Shown here piece after piece: positions 21,174-29,628 of a DNA stretch of 43,601 bases (the first letter of the stretch is position 1; each line of letters opens with the position of its first letter). This DNA comes from Bacteroidia bacterium. Its GTDB lineage: Bacteria > Bacteroidota > Bacteroidia > JADZBD01. Location of the stretch: the NCBI GenBank assembly GCA_020054095.1, contig JAGVMA010000066.1, positions 1 through 43,601 of the forward strand. The letters are read 5' to 3'. Under the pieces are notes generated by a model that worked only from the letters and a program-made list of their open reading frames with translations, had not been told where the DNA came from and made no database searches. A program made the position numbers and the translations under genes.

Positions 21174-21530
21174 TCACTTTTTAGTTGAGATAATATATTC
21201 GAGTTGTTGGATGCGCATATTCTTCTCCTCCAATAATTTTTCATACAGATTCTTTATAGTTTCAGCATCAAAAGAATTGTAAGTGTTATTAAGCCCTGAT
21301 TGAGAACAGGAGTTAAATATAATTTGCTCGTTAAAACCTTCTATAATACTTGAATCAACATTAAGTGCAGATGCTATTTTTTTTAGTTTAATATCATCTA
21401 CTTTAGTTTTCCCATTTTCAATGTTGGAATAGGCAGTTTGTGTTATTCCTAAGTGTTTTGCAACATAATCTTGAGATATGTTTTTTATTTCCCTGATTTT
21501 TTTGATTTTGTAGCCAATAGTATAATTCAT
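21174..21530 (-). CDS. XRE-family HTH regulator of the RiPP locus
   Basis: 118 aa. Residues ~5-62 form a Cro/CI-type helix-turn-helix (IKKIREIKNISQDYVAKHLG then TQTAYSNIENGKT, LKKIASALNVD). The C-terminal part (about 85-118) is a charged helix likely to be a coiled-coil dimerisation element. No ligand or protease domain is visible. It is divergent from the precursor gene across 101 bp. A palindrome touches its start codon, which suggests autoregulation. Control of the RiPP operon is inferred from position only. Confidence 0.88.
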   Translation of the reverse strand: MNYTIGYKIKKIREIKNISQDYVAKHLGITQTAYSNIENGKTKVDDIKLKKIASALNVDSSIIEGFNEQIIFNSCSQSGLNNTYNSFDAETIKNLYEKLLEEKNMRIQQLEYIISTKK

Positions 21531-21547
21531 AGTTATATATTATAACT
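21531..21547. promoter_or_regulatory. Palindromic operator candidate for the XRE regulator
   Basis: Seven-base arms AGTTATA and TATAACT separated by TAT, beginning one base upstream of the regulator's ATG and directly downstream of its -7 box. It would therefore cover the predicted transcription start. One related half-site (GTTATTATAA on the minus strand) is at 21561-21570, nearer the precursor promoter. Confidence 0.5.
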
Positions 21548-21555
21548 CAAAAATA
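21548..21555 (-). promoter_or_regulatory. Candidate -7 box of the XRE gene
   Basis: The minus strand reads TATTTTTG, a perfect TAnnTTTG match, 17 bases upstream of the ATG and abutting the palindrome. No clear -33 TTG is present. Confidence 0.42.
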
Positions 21556-21599
21556 ATAAATTATAATAACGAAAATGATAAAAAACTATTCCTTGTATT

Positions 21600-21607
21600 T
21601 ATTTTTG
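21600..21607 (+). promoter_or_regulatory. Candidate -7 box of the RiPP precursor gene
   Basis: TATTTTTG, a perfect TAnnTTTG match, 24 bases upstream of the precursor ATG. A -33 TTG is missing at 17-23 bp spacing, which may mean the promoter is weak or needs an activator. The 5' leader would be about 20 nt, with no Shine-Dalgarno but an A-rich lead-in, as is common in this phylum. Confidence 0.5.
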
Positions 21608-21631
21608 CTATGAACATTTAAAACATATATC

Positions 21632-21847
21632 ATGAAAAAATTAGAAAAACTAAAGAAAAAACACTTAGATGATTTTAAGGCCAACGAAGTAAAGGCATCG
21701 CATAAAATTATCGGTGGTAATGGGTATACTGGTAATGCGGGAGGTCAACAAACAGATCAGTTTACTGGAGGTGGAAGTGACACACAGAGTTGGTATTGGA
21801 CACAACATGGATCTGGCGTTGCATATAAGGATTACTATAACCTATAG
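21632..21847 (+). CDS. Grasp-with-spasm RiPP precursor peptide
   Basis: 71 aa. The leader (1-29) is Lys/Leu-rich (MKKLEKLKKKHLDDF) and ends IIGG, a double-Gly site for a C39 protease. The core (30-71) is rich in Gly, Thr, Ser, Gln and Tyr, has no Cys and no Glu, and carries three Asp (42, 50, 67) among Thr/Ser/Lys partners: T41-D42, S49-D50-T51, K66-D67. A WYW aromatic patch lies at 54-56 and the end is YYNL. This fits a substrate for ester/amide crosslinking by the adjacent ATP-grasp enzyme. It sits 50 bp upstream of gwsG with a strong hairpin between. Confidence 0.88.
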   Translation: MKKLEKLKKKHLDDFKANEVKASHKIIGGNGYTGNAGGQQTDQFTGGGSDTQSWYWTQHGSGVAYKDYYNL

Positions 21848-21857
21848 TTAATTAAAA

Positions 21858-21894
21858 AAATCTCCTTTAACAATTAAATTGTTAAAGGAGATTT
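21858..21894 (+). promoter_or_regulatory. 17-bp perfect hairpin masking the gwsG ribosome-binding site
   Basis: Arms AAATCTCCTTTAACAAT (21858-21874) and ATTGTTAAAGGAGATTT (21878-21894) with loop TAA. The right arm contains AAAGGAG at 21884-21890, seven bases before the gwsG ATG, a textbook Shine-Dalgarno sequence that the left arm pairs with completely. No T-run follows on the plus strand, so it is not a classic terminator for the precursor; on the minus strand it is followed by seven T and would terminate antisense transcripts. It probably protects the precursor mRNA 3' end and limits gwsG translation. Confidence 0.75.
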
Positions 21895-21897
21895 CGC

Positions 21898-22893
21898 ATG
21901 ATTATAATTTTTTGCGAACATATTGATTATACAGCAAACGAAATTTGTCGCTGGCTTAAGTATTTTAACAAGCGCTATTGCCTTATAACAGATCAACACC
22001 CGCTTGATGTTATGGAAATAGAGGTATCGAATAAAAAAATAAAATTTATACTTTACAACCACGCCTCAAAAGAATTTGTAGATAGCGACAAAATCACATA
22101 TTGTTATTACAGAAGAGGTGATTATGGCTTCATTTCTGATTACGGAATCAATCATAATGTTTACGAAAATAATATTGCGATTAGTAACGGACTTAAATCA
22201 TATTTAAAGAGCGAAACAAAAGCCATAAAAGAGTTTTTAGATGATGTTATTCTTCGTAAAAAATATATAGGAAGCCGAGAAGAGCTAAATAGAAATAAAT
22301 TAATCCAGTTAAGAGTAGCTACAGAAGTAGGATTAATGATTCCTAAAACCATCATTACCAATAATGCAGCTACTGCAACCAAAAAATTCAAAAAATACAA
22401 AAGCATTATCACAAAAGGCATCAATGAGTCCGTTGCTTTTGCAACTATTAATCAGTCATTTTTTAGTGCTACTAACATGGTAAAGAAAAAAGACATGCTT
22501 GATGGAGAGTCCTTTTTTCCGAGTTTATTCCAGGAGAACATTACTAAAAAATTTGAATTGCGAATATTTTTTTTTAATACCTACTTTTATGCAATGGCCA
22601 TATTTTCGCAACTTGATAAAAAAACTAAAGTGGATTTCCGGAACTACAACTGGGATAGGCCAAACAGAATGGTTCCGTTTAACCTGCCACTATCTGTTTT
22701 ATTAAAAATAAAATTATTGGTAAACAAACTAAGATTAACAACAGGTTCAGTAGACATGGTTTATACAAATAAAAATGAATATTGTTTTTTAGAAGTAAAT
22801 CCTGTTGGACAATTTGGAATGGTTTCAAAACCTTGCAATTATTATATCGAAAAAACGATTGCCAAATCAATAGCTGAATATGAAAAAAAATAA
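21898..22893 (+). CDS. gwsG: Grasp-with-spasm ATP-grasp peptide maturase
   Basis: 331 aa. The C-terminal ATP-grasp domain (about 125-331) shows RNKLIQLRVATEVGLMIPKT, the LRIFFF strand, and magnesium ligands Asp286 in GSVDMVY and Glu299/Asn301 in FLEVNPVGQFG, close to graspetide (microviridin-type) ligases. Residues 1-120 form the pre-ATP-grasp part with ITYCYYRRGDYGF. Its place between a GG-leader precursor and a SPASM protein matches the GwsG family of Bacteroidota. It should activate Asp carboxylates of the core and join them to Thr/Ser/Lys side chains. The next small frame starts 14 bases before its stop. Confidence 0.92.
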   Translation: MIIIFCEHIDYTANEICRWLKYFNKRYCLITDQHPLDVMEIEVSNKKIKFILYNHASKEFVDSDKITYCYYRRGDYGFISDYGINHNVYENNIAISNGLKSYLKSETKAIKEFLDDVILRKKYIGSREELNRNKLIQLRVATEVGLMIPKTIITNNAATATKKFKKYKSIITKGINESVAFATINQSFFSATNMVKKKDMLDGESFFPSLFQENITKKFELRIFFFNTYFYAMAIFSQLDKKTKVDFRNYNWDRPNRMVPFNLPLSVLLKIKLLVNKLRLTTGSVDMVYTNKNEYCFLEVNPVGQFGMVSKPCNYYIEKTIAKSIAEYEKK

Positions 22894-23041
22894 CACTTTT
22901 TTTAAAAAGAGAAGAGTAATGAGACATTTGCCCTTTTTAATAAGGTATGTTCAGGTAACCAGAAATGAGAAAAGTGTTTTATATAATTCACTACGCCCTA
23001 CTTTTTATAAGCGATACTATAAAATAATTATTTATGAATAG
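22880..23041 (+). CDS. Possible small gene bridging gwsG and gwsS, 53 aa
   Basis: ATG at 22880 lies inside the end of gwsG (14-base overlap), and the TAG at 23039 lies inside the start of gwsS, so the frame spans the whole 140-base gap without a stop. The product would be strongly basic (many Lys/Arg), with a MRHLPFLIRYVQ segment that could be an amphipathic helix and a Tyr-rich end (KRYYKIIIYE). It has no GG motif, so it is unlikely to be a second precursor. A chance open frame is possible in AT-rich DNA; overlap at both ends favours a real gene. Confidence 0.4.
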   Translation: MKKNNTFFKKRRVMRHLPFLIRYVQVTRNEKSVLYNSLRPTFYKRYYKIIIYE

Positions 23042-24059
23042 TGCAGATGAACACCTCTATTTGCAATTATTTGCCGACTGTATTGCAGTTAAAGGCAGCG
23101 TACGTAGTATAATTTATGATTTAGGACGTTGTTCTTACAAAATAGTACCTAATGATTTGTTAAAAGTTCTGCAACGCTGCTCATTGAAAAGCTTATCAGA
23201 AGTTATTGCAGACCTTGATGCAAAGGATAAGAAAACAGCAAAAGAGTACGTAAATTTTTTAATAAAAAACGAACTTGGTTTTTTATGCACCAAAAACGAA
23301 AAAGAGATGTTTCCGAAGTTGCCATTAAACTGGGATGTGCCTTCAACGATAGCCAACGCGACTATAGAGGTTGATAACCGTAATTTTAAAAATTTACACC
23401 ATTATATTTTGGAATTACAAAAATTCAATTGTTATTTTTTTTCATTAAATTTCCATAATGATATAAGCACTGCTGCATTCATAGAAACTATTAATTCTTT
23501 TCGTAATTCAGATTTGTACAGTTTGTCTATTGCCATTCCACATACTATTTTGAGTGATAAAATCATTAACGAAATTACAAAGCTCCATTATATATTAAAT
23601 GTTGTTTGCTATAATGCTCCAGCGGATGATGTGCTTAGATATTCTAATGATGGCAGGATTAAATTAATCACAAAAGCACTGACCAAGAAGTTACCAGCTA
23701 CTCATATCCCTTCGTTTACTGTAAATATAAGCCACTTTACAGAAGCTCAGAAATTTAATACTTTTTATAATCGAAAAATTTACATTGATAGATATGGGAA
23801 CGTGCGCAATTCTGTTTTTGCGCAAAAACATGGAAAACTAAATAAAAATGAAACCCATCAACACATCAAGCGAATTATTAATTCAAAAGCTTATAATTAC
23901 TTGTACAATGTAAAAAAGGATATAGTTAAAACGTGTAAAGATTGCGAATACAGATACATGTGTACTGACCCGAGAATACCGATGAAAAGCTCTTCGGGAT
24001 ATTATTACTATGAAACCCCGTGTTCATATAACCCGTACAAAGGCGAATGGAAAAGTTAA
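23034..24059 (+). CDS. gwsS: Grasp-with-spasm SPASM-domain protein
   Basis: 341 aa. The C-terminal SPASM-type cluster motif is Cys301-x2-Cys304-x5-Cys310-x19-Cys330 (CKDCEYRYMC, then ETPCSYNPYKGEW). The preceding strand NRKIYIDRYGNVRNS is the usual lead-in to a SPASM domain. The N-terminal part resembles the barrel of radical-SAM peptide maturases but has no CxxxCxxC, so it should bind an auxiliary Fe-S cluster without radical chemistry. This is the expected GwsS type, thought to work with GwsG on the precursor, perhaps in substrate binding. It overlaps the next gene by 13 bases. Confidence 0.9.
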   Translation: MNSADEHLYLQLFADCIAVKGSVRSIIYDLGRCSYKIVPNDLLKVLQRCSLKSLSEVIADLDAKDKKTAKEYVNFLIKNELGFLCTKNEKEMFPKLPLNWDVPSTIANATIEVDNRNFKNLHHYILELQKFNCYFFSLNFHNDISTAAFIETINSFRNSDLYSLSIAIPHTILSDKIINEITKLHYILNVVCYNAPADDVLRYSNDGRIKLITKALTKKLPATHIPSFTVNISHFTEAQKFNTFYNRKIYIDRYGNVRNSVFAQKHGKLNKNETHQHIKRIINSKAYNYLYNVKKDIVKTCKDCEYRYMCTDPRIPMKSSSGYYYYETPCSYNPYKGEWKS

Positions 24060-25141
24060 TTAAAGTTATTGCACTACTCCTGTTTTTTAACTGTAAAGGA
24101 CAGAATTTGGTTCCTAATGGCAGTTTCGAAATATTTAATGAATGTCCTCCGAACTATCATTTTGCAAGTTATCAAAACTGTTTAAAAAATACTGGATGGG
24201 AAACAACGTTTGTTGTATCGGGCTGTTATTTTAACGCTGATTGTGATAGTAGCTTAGTTCCATCCAATAGATATGGATACCAAAATGCTAGAACGGGAAA
24301 AGGGTATGTAAATTTGTTTTTTCATCCAGAAGGCAGATATGAGCCCCGTCCGGGCGTTTATTTTATTTGTAAATTAAAATACCCGTTAAATGAAGGTGAA
24401 AAATACAGCGTGGGCTATTATGTTTCGCTTGCTGAAATATCGAGCCATGCAATTTCTAATTTCGGTATTTATCTTTCGGAAAAAAGATGCTATCAAAATG
24501 TTAATACAAGTGGTGGTGGCGGATACATTAAAGAAAATAAGCAATGGGTGAAGCCACAATTCATTTGCCCCAAGGATAGTTTTATTTGCGATACATCGAA
24601 TTGGGTTCATATTGGTTTTGAATATACTGCCAAGGGAGGAGAAGAGTATTTAACTATCGGGAATTTTTACACATCTTATAATCCATACAGGCAAATTAAC
24701 AAAAATCACATAAAGACAGGACGGTATGCTTATGCAGCATACTACATTGATGATGTGTATGTGATACCGACAGATACTATCAATTTTAATGAATTAAAAA
24801 AAGGTAGCATAATCATACTTAATCAGTTGTATTTTAGTACCGATAGCTTCCGGATATTGCCCTACTCATATGCGCAATTAAACAGCATGGCTGATTACTT
24901 AAATGAAAATCCCAAGCTAACCATTTTAATCGAAGGGCATACGGATAATACCGGTGATAGTACTAAAAATAAAACTTTATCAACCAACAGAGCAAATGCA
25001 GTAAAAAAATATTTGATACAAAAAGGCATTCAAGCACAAAGGATTACGGCAACAGGATTTGGGGCATTATATCCAATAGCTGATAATACCACTTTTGAAG
25101 GAAAAAATAAAAACAGACGAGTTGAAATAAGTATTAAATAA
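24047..25141 (+). CDS. Envelope protein with lectin-like N-terminal region and OmpA C-terminal domain
   Basis: 364 aa. A signal peptide (about 1-19) is followed by NLVPNGSFEIFNECP (20-34), the opening of a beta-sandwich domain common in Bacteroidota surface proteins. It is Cys-rich (pairs near 33-45 and 175-185), so disulfides are likely. Residues ~255-364 form an OmpA/MotB peptidoglycan-binding domain: YFSTDSFRILPYS, EGHTDNTG with Asp300, and the closing KNKNRRVEISIK with the partner Arg. It should be periplasmic or outer-membrane anchored and hold peptidoglycan. The 13-base overlap with gwsS makes it part of the RiPP operon; its role there is unknown. Confidence 0.88.
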   Translation: MEKLIKVIALLLFFNCKGQNLVPNGSFEIFNECPPNYHFASYQNCLKNTGWETTFVVSGCYFNADCDSSLVPSNRYGYQNARTGKGYVNLFFHPEGRYEPRPGVYFICKLKYPLNEGEKYSVGYYVSLAEISSHAISNFGIYLSEKRCYQNVNTSGGGGYIKENKQWVKPQFICPKDSFICDTSNWVHIGFEYTAKGGEEYLTIGNFYTSYNPYRQINKNHIKTGRYAYAAYYIDDVYVIPTDTINFNELKKGSIIILNQLYFSTDSFRILPYSYAQLNSMADYLNENPKLTILIEGHTDNTGDSTKNKTLSTNRANAVKKYLIQKGIQAQRITATGFGALYPIADNTTFEGKNKNRRVEISIK

Positions 25142-25149
25142 AGAAATGT

Positions 25150-26178
25150 ATGATGATAAAAAAGGGAAATGTAATTATATGCGTATTGATGCTTTTTGTG
25201 TTTAAAGCACCTGCACAAAAAAGTGAGAAAAAACTTTATAAACTTATTTTATTAAATGGAGATACAATTTACAGTGACAAAGCAGCATTTAGTTCCAACC
25301 CATATTTTCTTCCTTTAAAAGCTGGCTCGGATACTATTTGGAAGCGCGTTATAGCTCCTCATGAAATTGCCTTCAACTCTAAAAATTATACGAATGCTAT
25401 AAAGCTAATAAAAGGCGAGATAAATAAATATCCATGGTATTTGTATAATTATCAGCAAATGGCATTTTGTTACAGCAAAACGCAACAGTACGATAGTGCG
25501 TGTTTTTTTTTACTGCAAGGACTATCGTTAAATAAGAGTGATGTAGCTGCTGTTCTTTCCGATCCTAATTTGCAGCAACTATTTACTACGCCTGCTTTTT
25601 TAAAGATTGAAAAAAAACTAGTTGAATTTGAACAACTGACACACCCAGATAAACCGGGTTATCTAAACTATACGCTTTATAAAGTATTACAAAGCGATCA
25701 ATATATAAGACAACTGCATTTTAATTATTCTCAAGAATATGGTGCGAAATCAGTAAAAATCGATTCTATATTAAAATGTATGGCTCTAATAGATTCACTA
25801 AATTTAATTACAGTGAAGCAGTTGATAAAAACATACGGCTACCCCACTGATTTAATGTTGACGGAATACAGTAGAAATACTATTTTTTTGGTGCTACTTC
25901 ATTCACCGTTGAGTGTTCAAAAACAATACCTGCCGGATATAAAAAAGTTGGCAAAATCAAACAAAATAAAAAAAGCCCATTATGCGTATATGTGGGATCG
26001 CATAAAAGTAATGGAAGGTAAAAAGCAAAAGTTTGGAACACAGGTGAAGTATAACGATTTGAAAAATTGCGATGAGTTGTGCCCTATCGTAAGTATGAAA
26101 AAAGTAAATATGTATAGAAAAAAATACGGTATGGAAAGTTTAGAGCAATATTTAGCACACTATCAAATGTGTAAATAA
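25150..26178 (+). CDS. Exported protein with TPR-like middle and C-terminal DUF6624 domain
   Basis: 342 aa. Signal peptide ~1-23 (ending APAQ). Residues ~70-130 look like one or two TPR helices (YTNAIKLIKGEINKYPWYLYNYQQMAFCYSK, given here only as the region 75-105). Residues ~200-342 match DUF6624 as I recall it: KTYGYPTDLML, LLHSPLSVQKQYLPDIKKL, AYMWDRIKVMEGKKQKFGTQ and a final RKKYGMESLEQYL. DUF6624 has no established activity. It starts eight bases after the OmpA-domain gene and ends three bases before the exporter, so it is embedded in the operon. Confidence 0.8.
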   Translation: MMIKKGNVIICVLMLFVFKAPAQKSEKKLYKLILLNGDTIYSDKAAFSSNPYFLPLKAGSDTIWKRVIAPHEIAFNSKNYTNAIKLIKGEINKYPWYLYNYQQMAFCYSKTQQYDSACFFLLQGLSLNKSDVAAVLSDPNLQQLFTTPAFLKIEKKLVEFEQLTHPDKPGYLNYTLYKVLQSDQYIRQLHFNYSQEYGAKSVKIDSILKCMALIDSLNLITVKQLIKTYGYPTDLMLTEYSRNTIFLVLLHSPLSVQKQYLPDIKKLAKSNKIKKAHYAYMWDRIKVMEGKKQKFGTQVKYNDLKNCDELCPIVSMKKVNMYRKKYGMESLEQYLAHYQMCK

Positions 26179-26181
26179 GTC

Positions 26182-28353
26182 ATGAAACTTCCTTTCTATC
26201 GCCAAACCGACACAAAGGATTGTGGCCCAACGTGCTTAAAGATGATTTTTTCTTTTTATGGAAAGAATGTTGATATTGGCAAATTGAGTGAGCTATCGAT
26301 GGGTAGCAGAGAGGGAACGAGTTTACATGGATTAAGATTAGCAGCAGAAAAGCTAGGACTAAAAACATTGGCTGCTAAAATTTCATACCAAGATTTAATG
26401 AATGCCCCGTTACCGTGTATTGCACACTGGAACTCAAATCATTTTATTGTCATCTACAAGATTTCAACTAAAAAAATAGAAATAGCTGATCCTGCTCACG
26501 GTATAATCACATATACTAAACAAGAATTTATAAAAAACTGGTGCCAAAATTCTATTGAGGGAATAGTCTTGTTATTCGACACATCAATCTCGTTCTATAA
26601 TGATAAAACAGAAGTAGCAGATCCCAATAAATCAAATTATCATGATATAATTATAGCACATTTTAAAAAACATAATAGGGCAATATTACAACTGATACTA
26701 GGTTTAATTGCTGGGAGCATACTTCAGTTAATATTTCCTTTTTTAACCCAAAGTATAATAGATATTGGAGTGGTAAATAGCAATATGGGTTTTATATATC
26801 TTATTCTTGCTTCACAACTACTTATTTTTATTGGGAAAAGTACCGTTGATATAATGCGGGGGTGGATTTTAATGCATATAAGCAGTAGAGTAAGTATTTC
26901 ACTAGTTTCCGATTTCTTAATAAAAATTATGAAACTTCCGATTTCCTTTTTTGATTCAAAAATCACAGGAGATATTTTACAAAAAATAAACGATCACTAT
27001 AGGATAGAAAGTTTTCTTACATCATCTTCACTGATGATATTGTTTTCTTTCATTAACTTTTTTGCTTTTTCAATAGTTTTAGCATGTTACGATATAAACA
27101 TATTTTTCATTCTTTTATTTTGCACCATTTTGTATTTCGTTTGGATACTTTTTTTTATGAAAAAACGAGCAGATTTAGACTATAAAAGATTCAGTCAGAA
27201 TTCTGCAAGTAATAGCAAAATAATAGAGTTAGTTGAGGGGATGCAGGAAATTAAGTTAAATAATGCCGAACGTAAAAAAAGATGGGAATGGGAATCAATA
27301 CAAGTTAAACTTTACAATACAAACAGGAAAGCATTGATTTTAGAACAATTTCAAACATCGGGATCGAGTTTAATTAACGAATTAAAAAATATTTTTATTT
27401 CATTTTATAGTGCCCAACTTGTGATTCAGGGTGAAATTACATTAGGGATGATGCTTTCTATAAGTTATATTATAGGACAACTCAATGGACCAATTCTACA
27501 GCTTGTTGGATTTGTTCAGTCGTTTCAAGATGCCAAACTCAGTCTGATTAGAATAAGCGAGGTACACAATTTAAAAGAAGAAAGTATATCTGATACGAAT
27601 GAAGATATTGATACAACTGCGAATTTAACCTTGAATAATATTTCTTTTACTTATCATAATAACAATAACCCTGTTTTAAAAAATTTATCATTAATCATTC
27701 CAAACAATAAAATTACTGCAATTGTTGGATCGAGTGGTAGCGGCAAAACCACATTAATGAAGTTGCTTCTGAAGTTTTATGAGCCTTCTTCAGGCGATAT
27801 TCGTATTGGCACTCAAAATTTAAAAAATATAACTAACGATACTTGGCGAAGCACATGCGGTGCAGTATTGCAAGAGGGCTTTATATTCTCAGATACAGTA
27901 TCAAATAATATTACACTTAGCGAGCACATTATTGACAAAGAGCGGCTTAATTATTCTATGAATATGGCTAATATTAAAGACGAAATTGAACTTTTTCCTC
28001 AAGGTGTTTATACTAAAATTGGTATTGAAGGGATTGGAATAAGTGCAGGGCAAAAGCAAAGAATATTAATTGCAAGAGCCATCTATAAGAATCCTAAGTT
28101 TCTTTTTTTTGACGAGGCCACCAGTTCATTGGATGCAAACAATGAGAAAATGATAGTAGAGAAATTATATGATTTTTTCAAAAATAGAACAGTTGTAATA
28201 ATTGCACATCGGTTAAGCACGGTTAAATACGCAGATAATATTATCGTTCTTGATAAAGGAGATTTGATTGAATCTGGTAATCATAAGGACTTGGTTAGTA
28301 AAAGAGGGCACTATTTTAATTTAATTAATAATCAATTGGAATTTTACACATAA
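26182..28353 (+). CDS. C39 peptidase-containing ABC exporter (PCAT)
   Basis: 723 aa with three parts. Residues 1-~130 are a C39 protease: Cys14 in DCGPTC, His87 in NHFIVI, Asp103 in ADPAHG, the triad that cuts after Gly-Gly leaders. Residues ~165-445 hold six membrane spans. Residues ~480-723 form the ATPase: Walker A GSSGSGKTT (516-524), signature ISAGQKQR (a variant of LSGGQ, near 621), Walker B FFDEATSSLD with Asp644/Glu645, and H-loop His676. It should remove the leader of the precursor encoded upstream and pump the core across the inner membrane. It is followed three bases later by the adaptor gene. Confidence 0.95.
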   Translation: MKLPFYRQTDTKDCGPTCLKMIFSFYGKNVDIGKLSELSMGSREGTSLHGLRLAAEKLGLKTLAAKISYQDLMNAPLPCIAHWNSNHFIVIYKISTKKIEIADPAHGIITYTKQEFIKNWCQNSIEGIVLLFDTSISFYNDKTEVADPNKSNYHDIIIAHFKKHNRAILQLILGLIAGSILQLIFPFLTQSIIDIGVVNSNMGFIYLILASQLLIFIGKSTVDIMRGWILMHISSRVSISLVSDFLIKIMKLPISFFDSKITGDILQKINDHYRIESFLTSSSLMILFSFINFFAFSIVLACYDINIFFILLFCTILYFVWILFFMKKRADLDYKRFSQNSASNSKIIELVEGMQEIKLNNAERKKRWEWESIQVKLYNTNRKALILEQFQTSGSSLINELKNIFISFYSAQLVIQGEITLGMMLSISYIIGQLNGPILQLVGFVQSFQDAKLSLIRISEVHNLKEESISDTNEDIDTTANLTLNNISFTYHNNNNPVLKNLSLIIPNNKITAIVGSSGSGKTTLMKLLLKFYEPSSGDIRIGTQNLKNITNDTWRSTCGAVLQEGFIFSDTVSNNITLSEHIIDKERLNYSMNMANIKDEIELFPQGVYTKIGIEGIGISAGQKQRILIARAIYKNPKFLFFDEATSSLDANNEKMIVEKLYDFFKNRTVVIIAHRLSTVKYADNIIVLDKGDLIESGNHKDLVSKRGHYFNLINNQLEFYT

Positions 28354-28356
28354 CAA

Positions 28357-29628
28357 ATGACTAAATCAACAGAGCAAATTTCTGAATCTTTCTCCGAATT
28401 GTTGAATGACAAACCAAATCACCTTTTTCGCTTCGGTAACTCAATTGTGCTGCTATTACTAATAGCAGTTATTATTTTTACTTTTTTAATTACATATCCT
28501 ACTGTTCTTTCTGCAAAAGTTACTTTATCAAGTTACAATCCAGCAATTAAAATTTATGCAAAACAATCTGGCAAAATTATTGACGTAAATATCAAAAGTG
28601 GGGATGTCGTAAAGAAAGGCGATGTGCTACTTGTAATTGAAAGCACTGCCAATTATAATCATATTCAATTTGTATCTAGATTAATTGATTTTCCAGAAAC
28701 CGCATCTTGTTCATCAATTTTTTCTCAAATCGACACATTGATTTTGGGTGATATTACTACATCCTATATTTCACTTATTCAAGAGTGTAACGAGTTCCAG
28801 CAATTTAAAAATGATAATTTTTTTGAAATAAAAATTAACTATATTAAAAAAGAGATCGCGCAGTATGATCAACTTCAGTTAACACTTGAAAATCAAGTAA
28901 CTCTATATAAAAAAGAACACCAGTTGATTGAAAAAGATTATCATAGACATTTGTTACTATATAGCGAAAAAACTATTTCAAGTAGCTCAATTGAGCAGAT
29001 TGAAAAGGGTTATATATCATCACAAAGAATTTTAGAATCAATGAGGACTAATGCGATTAATAATACTATCACAATATATAAGTTGAATCAAAGTGTAACT
29101 CAATTAGAATTAGAGAATAAGCAGCAATACAATAAACATATTCAGCAAATAAGTTACTTTAAGCAAAAATTAAAATCAGATATTTCTGCTTGGAGAGATA
29201 AGCATGTTATTCAATCACCTATTGACGGAAGACTATCTTTGTTTGCATCATGGAATAAAAATACAACTATTTTGCTTGGCGATCCTATTCTTAACATTGT
29301 ACCATTTAATAAAGAAAAAATGGTAGCAAAATTGTTTTTACCCACTACAAATTCTGCCAAAATAAAAGTAGGCCAGCGTGTAAATATTAAATTAAAAGAC
29401 TATCCCTATCAGGAGTATGGTATGTTGACTGGCACTATCCACGCTATATCGCTTGTTCCGGATAACGATGTTTATTTTATTGAAGTTTGGTTTAATACCA
29501 CGGGGTTGACCTCTACTTATGGTAAAAAGCTAGAATATAAAGCAAACATGGAGGGTATTGCTGAAGTGATGATAGATAACACTTCACTGTTTTATAAAGT
29601 TTTCAATCGTGTTTTTCAGTCAATATAA
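28357..29628 (+). CDS. HlyD-family membrane fusion protein
   Basis: 423 aa. A short cytoplasmic tail, one membrane span (about 29-47), then the first half of a split lipoyl domain (KIYAKQSGKIIDVNIKSGD, about 66-84). A long helical hairpin with heptad character follows (about 130-285), then IQSPIDGRLSLFASW returning to the lipoyl fold, and a beta-barrel end (GQRVNIKLKDYPYQEYG). This is the usual type I secretion adaptor that links the PCAT exporter to an outer-membrane channel. No TolC-like gene is in the cluster. It is the last gene of the operon, convergent with aroA, with no clear terminator in the 30-bp gap. Confidence 0.93.
   Translation: MTKSTEQISESFSELLNDKPNHLFRFGNSIVLLLLIAVIIFTFLITYPTVLSAKVTLSSYNPAIKIYAKQSGKIIDVNIKSGDVVKKGDVLLVIESTANYNHIQFVSRLIDFPETASCSSIFSQIDTLILGDITTSYISLIQECNEFQQFKNDNFFEIKINYIKKEIAQYDQLQLTLENQVTLYKKEHQLIEKDYHRHLLLYSEKTISSSSIEQIEKGYISSQRILESMRTNAINNTITIYKLNQSVTQLELENKQQYNKHIQQISYFKQKLKSDISAWRDKHVIQSPIDGRLSLFASWNKNTTILLGDPILNIVPFNKEKMVAKLFLPTTNSAKIKVGQRVNIKLKDYPYQEYGMLTGTIHAISLVPDNDVYFIEVWFNTTGLTSTYGKKLEYKANMEGIAEVMIDNTSLFYKVFNRVFQSI

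Follow-up and report, generated by a model that had tools for sequence, protein, structure and literature searches.

The question raised by the gene cluster at positions 21174–29628 of contig JAGVMA010000066.1 (Bacteroidia bacterium, assembly GCA_020054095.1) is what its SPASM protein, GwsS, contributes to peptide maturation. The window, that is, the whole stretch of DNA that was analysed, is 43,601 nt long; in addition to GwsS, the cluster encodes a small precursor with a GG leader (GwsA), an ATP-grasp synthetase (GwsG), a C39 peptidase-ABC exporter and an HlyD-type adaptor. As the best explanation overall, a graspetide is quite probably made and exported, with GwsS serving as a non-catalytic, RRE-bearing docking partner of GwsG. 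A GwsS that is dead as an enzyme would alter the chemistry expected of the product.

To collect relatives, an alignment of GwsS proteins was used to scan 84,980 species genomes. This yielded 503 related stretches, of which the best 79 distinct loci were kept; all are from Bacteroidota except L043 (Acidobacteriota bin). Within 6 kb of gwsS these loci carry gwsG (78 loci), C39-ABC (42), HlyD (32), DUF6624 (24) and OmpA-domain (5) genes, the counts being lower bounds because of contig ends. The assignment to the grasp-with-spasm type, made in the initial annotation, was borne out: GwsG and GwsS both exceed the NCBIfam cut-offs (TIGR04192 and TIGR04193, respectively) and score best to these families and not to unrelated ones, and 51 related loci together have 66 small open reading frames (ORFs) with GG leaders upstream of gwsG. 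All eight genes named at that stage were recovered intact, at the positions and in the families proposed. The locus is real and almost certainly functional, and belongs to the group in a minority form, characterised by a GwsS without AuxI cysteines and by an OmpA–DUF6624 pair. The closest relative of the window GwsS is 34% identical.

The radical-SAM motif CX3CX2C, already reported as missing from GwsS, is truly absent. It was found in none of the 101 family proteins of a cysteine census at any place in the sequence; as a positive control, it was detected in 12 of 14 distant SPASM proteins retrieved with the same hidden Markov model (HMM). The β1–α1 segment, where the cluster loop would be expected, is short in all proteins (18–24 residues; N108–L128) and free of cysteine in 85 of the 101. 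In the structural model strand β1 spans residues 108–113, and helix α1 starts at residue 118.

This model, calculated with AlphaFold2 from 85 sequences (predicted local distance difference test score 94.4; predicted template modelling score 0.90), comprises an N-terminal RRE (about residues 8–91), a degenerate radical-SAM barrel (about 100–220) and a SPASM region. The N-terminal domain adopts the PqqD-like winged-helix fold of RREs (strands 9–39, helices 40–78). By structural comparison (VIA), residues 8–84 were matched to the leader-bound lasso B1 RRE (6jx3_B; Z 9.9, 2.0 Å, 77 residues), and the N-domain was also matched to those of MccB and of a cyanobactin heterocyclase (LynD-type). On the strength of the model, it is a predicted leader-binding RRE. 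Residues 100–333 matched SuiB (Z 12.1) and PqqE (Z 11.5), and TigE and CteB could be aligned over nearly the full length of GwsS. CteB and SuiB were also ranked first by Foldseek (two chains with E < 0.001). No radical-SAM protein was matched when PDB sequences were searched with the GwsS profile, and the kinship is visible by fold alone. At L009/L010 (G002 C68), a 211-aa gwsS product was observed in which the N-domain and SPASM ends are kept and the barrel is gone; a broken gwsG adjoins it, and either the locus is in decay or the barrel has been deleted naturally.

The remaining cysteines of GwsS were named AuxI and AuxII after the anSME-type ligand pattern, which we take to apply here, the model not proving the assignment. 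The AuxII cysteines (C301, C304, C310 and C330; CX2CX5C...C) are present in the window protein and in 100 of the 101 proteins overall. The AuxI cysteines (one before position 228, in a segment missing from the window protein, and positions 244, 260 and 313; CX10GX4C plus two) are kept or lost all together, save in one protein that keeps three of four. All four ligands are replaced in the window GwsS (gap, F, S and P), and 17 of the 100 proteins in the tree set are AuxI-less; one fragmentary outlier of the family lacks both groups. The missing SAM-binding cluster, here together with the missing AuxI, argues for a structural role instead of a catalytic one. By analogy, the best reading of GwsS would be a non-catalytic docking partner for GwsG that works like MirC of rosaritide. 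For the family as a whole the balance tips towards the same account: GwsS would be a radical-SAM enzyme that has lost its activity and now, with its RRE, serves the synthetase as a docking subunit, its clusters shed stepwise (SAM, then AuxI, with AuxII kept), the small LPL protein would be a further subunit, and ring closure would be performed by GwsG alone.

Loss of AuxI in a co-inherited GwsG–GwsS lineage was considered and rejected. On a GwsS tree calculated with the trait columns masked, a single, modestly supported branch sets the AuxI-less proteins apart (88 in the Shimodaira–Hasegawa-like approximate likelihood ratio test), whereas their label is scattered across the GwsG tree (13 changes vs 15 for shuffled labels). 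The pattern is that of either an old GwsS subfamily swapping partners or repeated convergent loss. Four loci (L044, L052, L065 and L086) contain one AuxI-kept and one AuxI-less operon each. Of two Kordia proteins, that of L027 has lost AuxI and that of L083 retains it. Cysteine-free precursors were ruled out as the cause of the loss: six precursors with cysteine and one without accompany AuxI-less proteins, and 33 with and 14 without accompany proteins that keep AuxI.

GwsA was the top scorer among the 344 window ORFs for an HMM of the leaders from other loci (E 0.24; domain 0.028, a weak match). Its 42-residue core contains no cysteine, three Asp and nine Ser/Thr/Lys residues, so at most three rings and a mass shift of −54 Da are expected. 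The calculated monoisotopic mass of the unmodified core is 4578.965, falling to 4560.954, 4542.944 and 4524.933 with one, two and three rings. Since the window GwsS is without a close relative, the core is not readable by conservation. GwsG keeps the ATP-grasp residues K173, R222, D286, E299 and N301, which are conserved in 90–91 of 91 relatives, and its next-best models are TIGR04185/04184 (microviridin class). Genome searches gave a single gwsG, a single precursor copy and a single DUF6624 gene. Elsewhere, a Chitinophagales contig (L013) carries three consecutive gwsG–gwsS pairs with differing GG-leader precursors.

From these parts the following pathway is proposed. GwsA would be made with a 29-residue leader, to which the N-terminal RRE of GwsS would bind, docking GwsA on GwsG and presenting the core. 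GwsG would phosphorylate the Asp side chains of the core and join them to Ser, Thr or Lys in as many as three ester or amide rings. The C39 domain would cut after GG, and the ABC–HlyD pump would export the product via a TolC-type duct; such an outer-membrane duct must be supplied from elsewhere in the genome, where outer-membrane efflux proteins are encoded. GwsS would thus be a former radical-SAM/SPASM maturase with a structural task, LPL a small helper protein, most likely for the synthetase, and the OmpA and DUF6624 proteins a wall-anchored periplasmic unit that would act after export in trimming, folding or self-protection.

The LPL gene (22880–23041), which shares 14 nt with gwsG and 8 nt with gwsS, had been overlooked. 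The locus was described as complete, and this held for the named genes and the exporter, but not for LPL or for the duct. The ORF is the best of the 344 for the LPL HMM and a divergent member of the family; an internal ATG gives MRHLPFLIRYVQ...YYKIIIYE. Of 77 related pairs, 71 have a small ORF between gwsG and gwsS (consensus ...LPLNYQ...FYKPISKI...). For the LPL family, a PqqD-like chaperone was suggested, contact with the ATP-grasp enzyme also being allowed (PMC8939145). Where gwsG and gwsS lie apart, LPL follows gwsG in L070, L086 and L076 and precedes gwsS in L054; the published rule, by which it invariably lies immediately ahead of the SPASM gene, is therefore not strict, L070, L086 and L076 differing from it. 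As GwsS already bears an RRE, it has less need of a further chaperone. The evidence leans weakly towards LPL being, most likely, a small accessory of GwsG. L043 (Thermoanaerobaculum bin; transfer or mis-binning) has a 435-aa GwsS frame and no space for LPL.

The two exported proteins between gwsS and the exporter gene had been called distinctive, which proved too strong: 24 of the 79 loci have a DUF6624 gene close to gwsS, and OmpA–DUF6624 recurs elsewhere. The complete order gwsS–ompA–DUF6624–ABC–HlyD is repeated in L017, and gwsS–ompA in L026, with the contig ending soon after; in L059 ompA precedes gwsG. Upstream of gwsG in L058 (6748–8712), a 654-aa fusion was found that joins an 'NLVKNSGFE' N-domain, OmpA (292–388) and DUF6624 (525–644). 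OmpA genes near gws loci are not clearly above background (7 matches in 1.29 Mb, 4 inside operons), so only gene order and fusion argue for the OmpA link. The N-domain of the OmpA protein has 20 matches in its own genome, where a large NLVPNGSFE-type exported family, many members with an OmpA-sized frame, is scattered over many contigs. DUF6624 is enriched at gws loci (24/79 vs about 79 matches in 395 genomes). Its proteins have signal-peptide-like N termini, as judged by eye, and conserved positions H251, DQxxR and D283/Q298; the fold is mostly helical, with generic TPR proteins as best matches and no function indicated. The domain is frequent in graspetide groups 18, 20, 23 and 42 and was suggested as a possible biosynthetic enzyme (PMC13097080); its probable counterpart in PMC8939145 is cluster 23, an exported family in which His and Arg are conserved. 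The fusion suggests that OmpA and DUF6624 form one wall-anchored periplasmic unit. It would locate DUF6624, the suspected new biosynthetic enzyme, in the periplasm, which makes a post-export step or self-protection more likely.

Some observations weigh against a docking role for GwsS. The retained AuxII ligands, in most relatives together with AuxI, could support a redox or other reaction; AuxI loss does not track precursor cysteine content; most precursors of other loci contain cysteine and could suit thioether chemistry; and the statistics of the precursor (E 0.24) and LPL (E 0.0064) calls in the window are weak. It is quite unlikely, though, that GwsS is an active tailoring enzyme for thioether or carbon–carbon bonds, as the graspetide literature assumes and PMC8939145 proposed. 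Its fold relatives SuiB, CteB, PqqE and SkfB are catalysts, its AuxII ligands are conserved and many precursors offer cysteines, but CX3CX2C is absent throughout the family with the control working, the cluster loop is too short, and in the window the core has no cysteine and AuxI is lost. Nor is it likely that GwsS is a redox or iron–sulfur sensor gating GwsG, with a regulatory rather than purely docking function. The near-invariance of the AuxII cysteines may go beyond the need of a mere scaffold; loss of AuxI as a unit with AuxII kept would equally be explained by a structural cluster or zinc site, and no redox partner gene was seen.

Decay or silencing of the cluster, with GwsS degenerating along with it, is very improbable. 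The AuxI loss and the long branch of the window GwsS would fit, and decayed copies exist, as at L009/L010 with its barrel-less gwsS; yet all ORFs here are intact, overlapping and in frame, GwsG keeps its catalytic residues, the DCGPTC motif of the C39 domain is undamaged, and AuxI-less GwsS proteins also occur in relatives from many families. The docking-partner account of GwsS leaves separate the question of whether the OmpA and DUF6624 genes sit in the operon by chance and play no part in the making of the peptide, which is possible but doubtful. The size of the OmpA N-domain family in this genome and the background-level OmpA counts speak for chance; against it stand DUF6624, far above background, the L058 fusion with the same order in L017, and the phylum sample, where 30 DUF6624 genes were inspected over about 1.5 kb and none was accompanied by an OmpA gene of this kind.

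The features of the locus are listed in Table 1. Gap lengths are 50 nt for gwsA–gwsG, 8 nt for ompA–DUF6624, 3 nt for DUF6624–ABC and 3 nt for ABC–HlyD, and gwsS and ompA overlap by 13 nt; the gaps of 3–8 bp originally given from the OmpA gene on were exact. The cluster (21632–29628) has a G+C content of 31.4% vs 37.4% in the remaining window, in which no 4-kb stretch falls below 35.7%; this A+T richness suggests a horizontal and probably recent arrival. On its two sides lie aroA and a gene for a Rieske protein. In the sister genome G001, which was consulted for an empty site, the homologues of purC and aroA are on separate contigs.

Table 1. Genes and signals of the gws locus, with positions in the window.
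Feature	Positions	Strand	Basis and remarks
XRE/HTH_3 regulator, 118 aa, divergent	21174-21530	-	Pfam PF01381, 57 bits; presumed regulatory role
Facing -7-type box TATTTTTG, upstream of XRE gene	21548-21555	-	pattern match
Putative Bacteroidota -7 promoter box TATTTTTG	21600-21607	+	pattern match, 25 nt before gwsA ATG
gwsA, precursor, 71 aa	21632-21847	+	ORF; leader 1-29 (...KIIGG), Cys-free 42-aa core NGYTGNAGGQQTDQFTGGGSDTQSWYWTQHGSGVAYKDYYNL
Perfect hairpin, 17 bp, between gwsA stop and gwsG start	21858-21894	+	-22.3 kcal/mol, z -8.2
gwsG, graspetide synthetase (ATP-grasp)	21898-22893	+	TIGR04192, 270.3 bits (cut-off 230)
LPL-family small protein, at most 53 aa	22880-23041	+	HMM built without window sequence, E 0.0064 (weak)
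gwsS, SPASM protein	23034-24059	+	TIGR04193, 195.9 bits (cut-off 175)
OmpA-domain protein, exported	24047-25141	+	PF00691, 85 bits; 'NLVPNGSFE' N-domain, C-terminal peptidoglycan-binding domain
TPR + DUF6624 protein, exported	25150-26178	+	PF20329, 42.5 bits (cut-off 27)
C39 peptidase-ABC exporter (PCAT)	26182-28353	+	PF03412, PF00664, PF00005; DCGPTC motif intact
HlyD-type periplasmic adaptor	28357-29628	+	PF13437; TIGR01843-like

The 101-bp divergent region holds one outward TATTTTTG box per gene. No -33 box was seen with the box at 21600–21607, which is a candidate promoter element. The right arm of the hairpin contains the purine-rich AAAGGAGA beside the gwsG ATG, and hairpins with z < −3 precede gwsG in 12 of 73 loci, vs 1 of 83 for gwsS. 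This hairpin may hold enzyme levels below precursor levels. Read on the minus strand, it resembles a terminator with a run of 7 T. In five other loci, HTH-like proteins of 103–138 aa are encoded directly upstream of the precursors (L072:6269–6610, L077:6840–7256, L078:8108–8419, L081:646–969 and L025:6691–7062) and are possible dedicated regulators.

In earlier work the SPASM protein was treated as a radical enzyme, and thioether or carbon–carbon crosslinks were predicted (PMC8939145). A family-wide non-catalytic GwsS is apparently unstated in the open-licence papers searched, where the protein is named either a radical-SAM enzyme or simply SPASM-containing; an earlier mention may exist, such as in the text of the TIGR04193 entry. 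If GwsS is an RRE pseudoenzyme, structure predictions would change for hundreds of Bacteroidota peptides; a likely reason would be given for a synthetase failing alone, and GwsS, perhaps with LPL, would have to be provided as well. The protein would, moreover, clearly exemplify the conversion of an enzyme into a subunit for substrate recognition.

With the known grasp-with-spasm graspetides (TIGR04192/TIGR04193; branch 5 of PMC8939145) the locus shares adjoining ATP-grasp and SPASM genes with LPL between them, a GG-leader precursor upstream, C39-ABC and HlyD. The type is probably the SPASM-associated group 14 of PMC13097080, the members of which all have a SPASM protein. The locus differs from other members in that its GwsS also lacks the four AuxI cysteines, as do 17 of 100, and in the OmpA gene between gwsS and DUF6624, found elsewhere only in L017. 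The rosaritide synthetase MirB needs and co-purifies with MirC, the N-domain of which is weakly RRE-like, and CorB likewise depends on CorC (PMC13097080). The rosaritide and gws systems have in common a synthetase encoded beside a conserved partner with an RRE-like N-domain. MirC is a PpiC/SurA-like chaperone from Actinomycetota, whereas GwsS is of pseudo radical-SAM/SPASM type and its RRE match is clear; the likeness to MirC and CorC concerns the way of working only, as GwsS lies outside those families. SuiB, CteB, TigE and PqqE have the same domain order and fold as GwsS, but carry the SAM-binding cluster, for which GwsS has neither the CX3CX2C motif nor room. The microviridin MdnB/MdnC class has the ATP-grasp fold and catalytic residues in common with GwsG. 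Microviridin leaders contain an activating PFFARFL-type motif that is found in none of the branch 5 precursors (PMC8939145); gws loci have the RRE-bearing GwsS and LPL instead.

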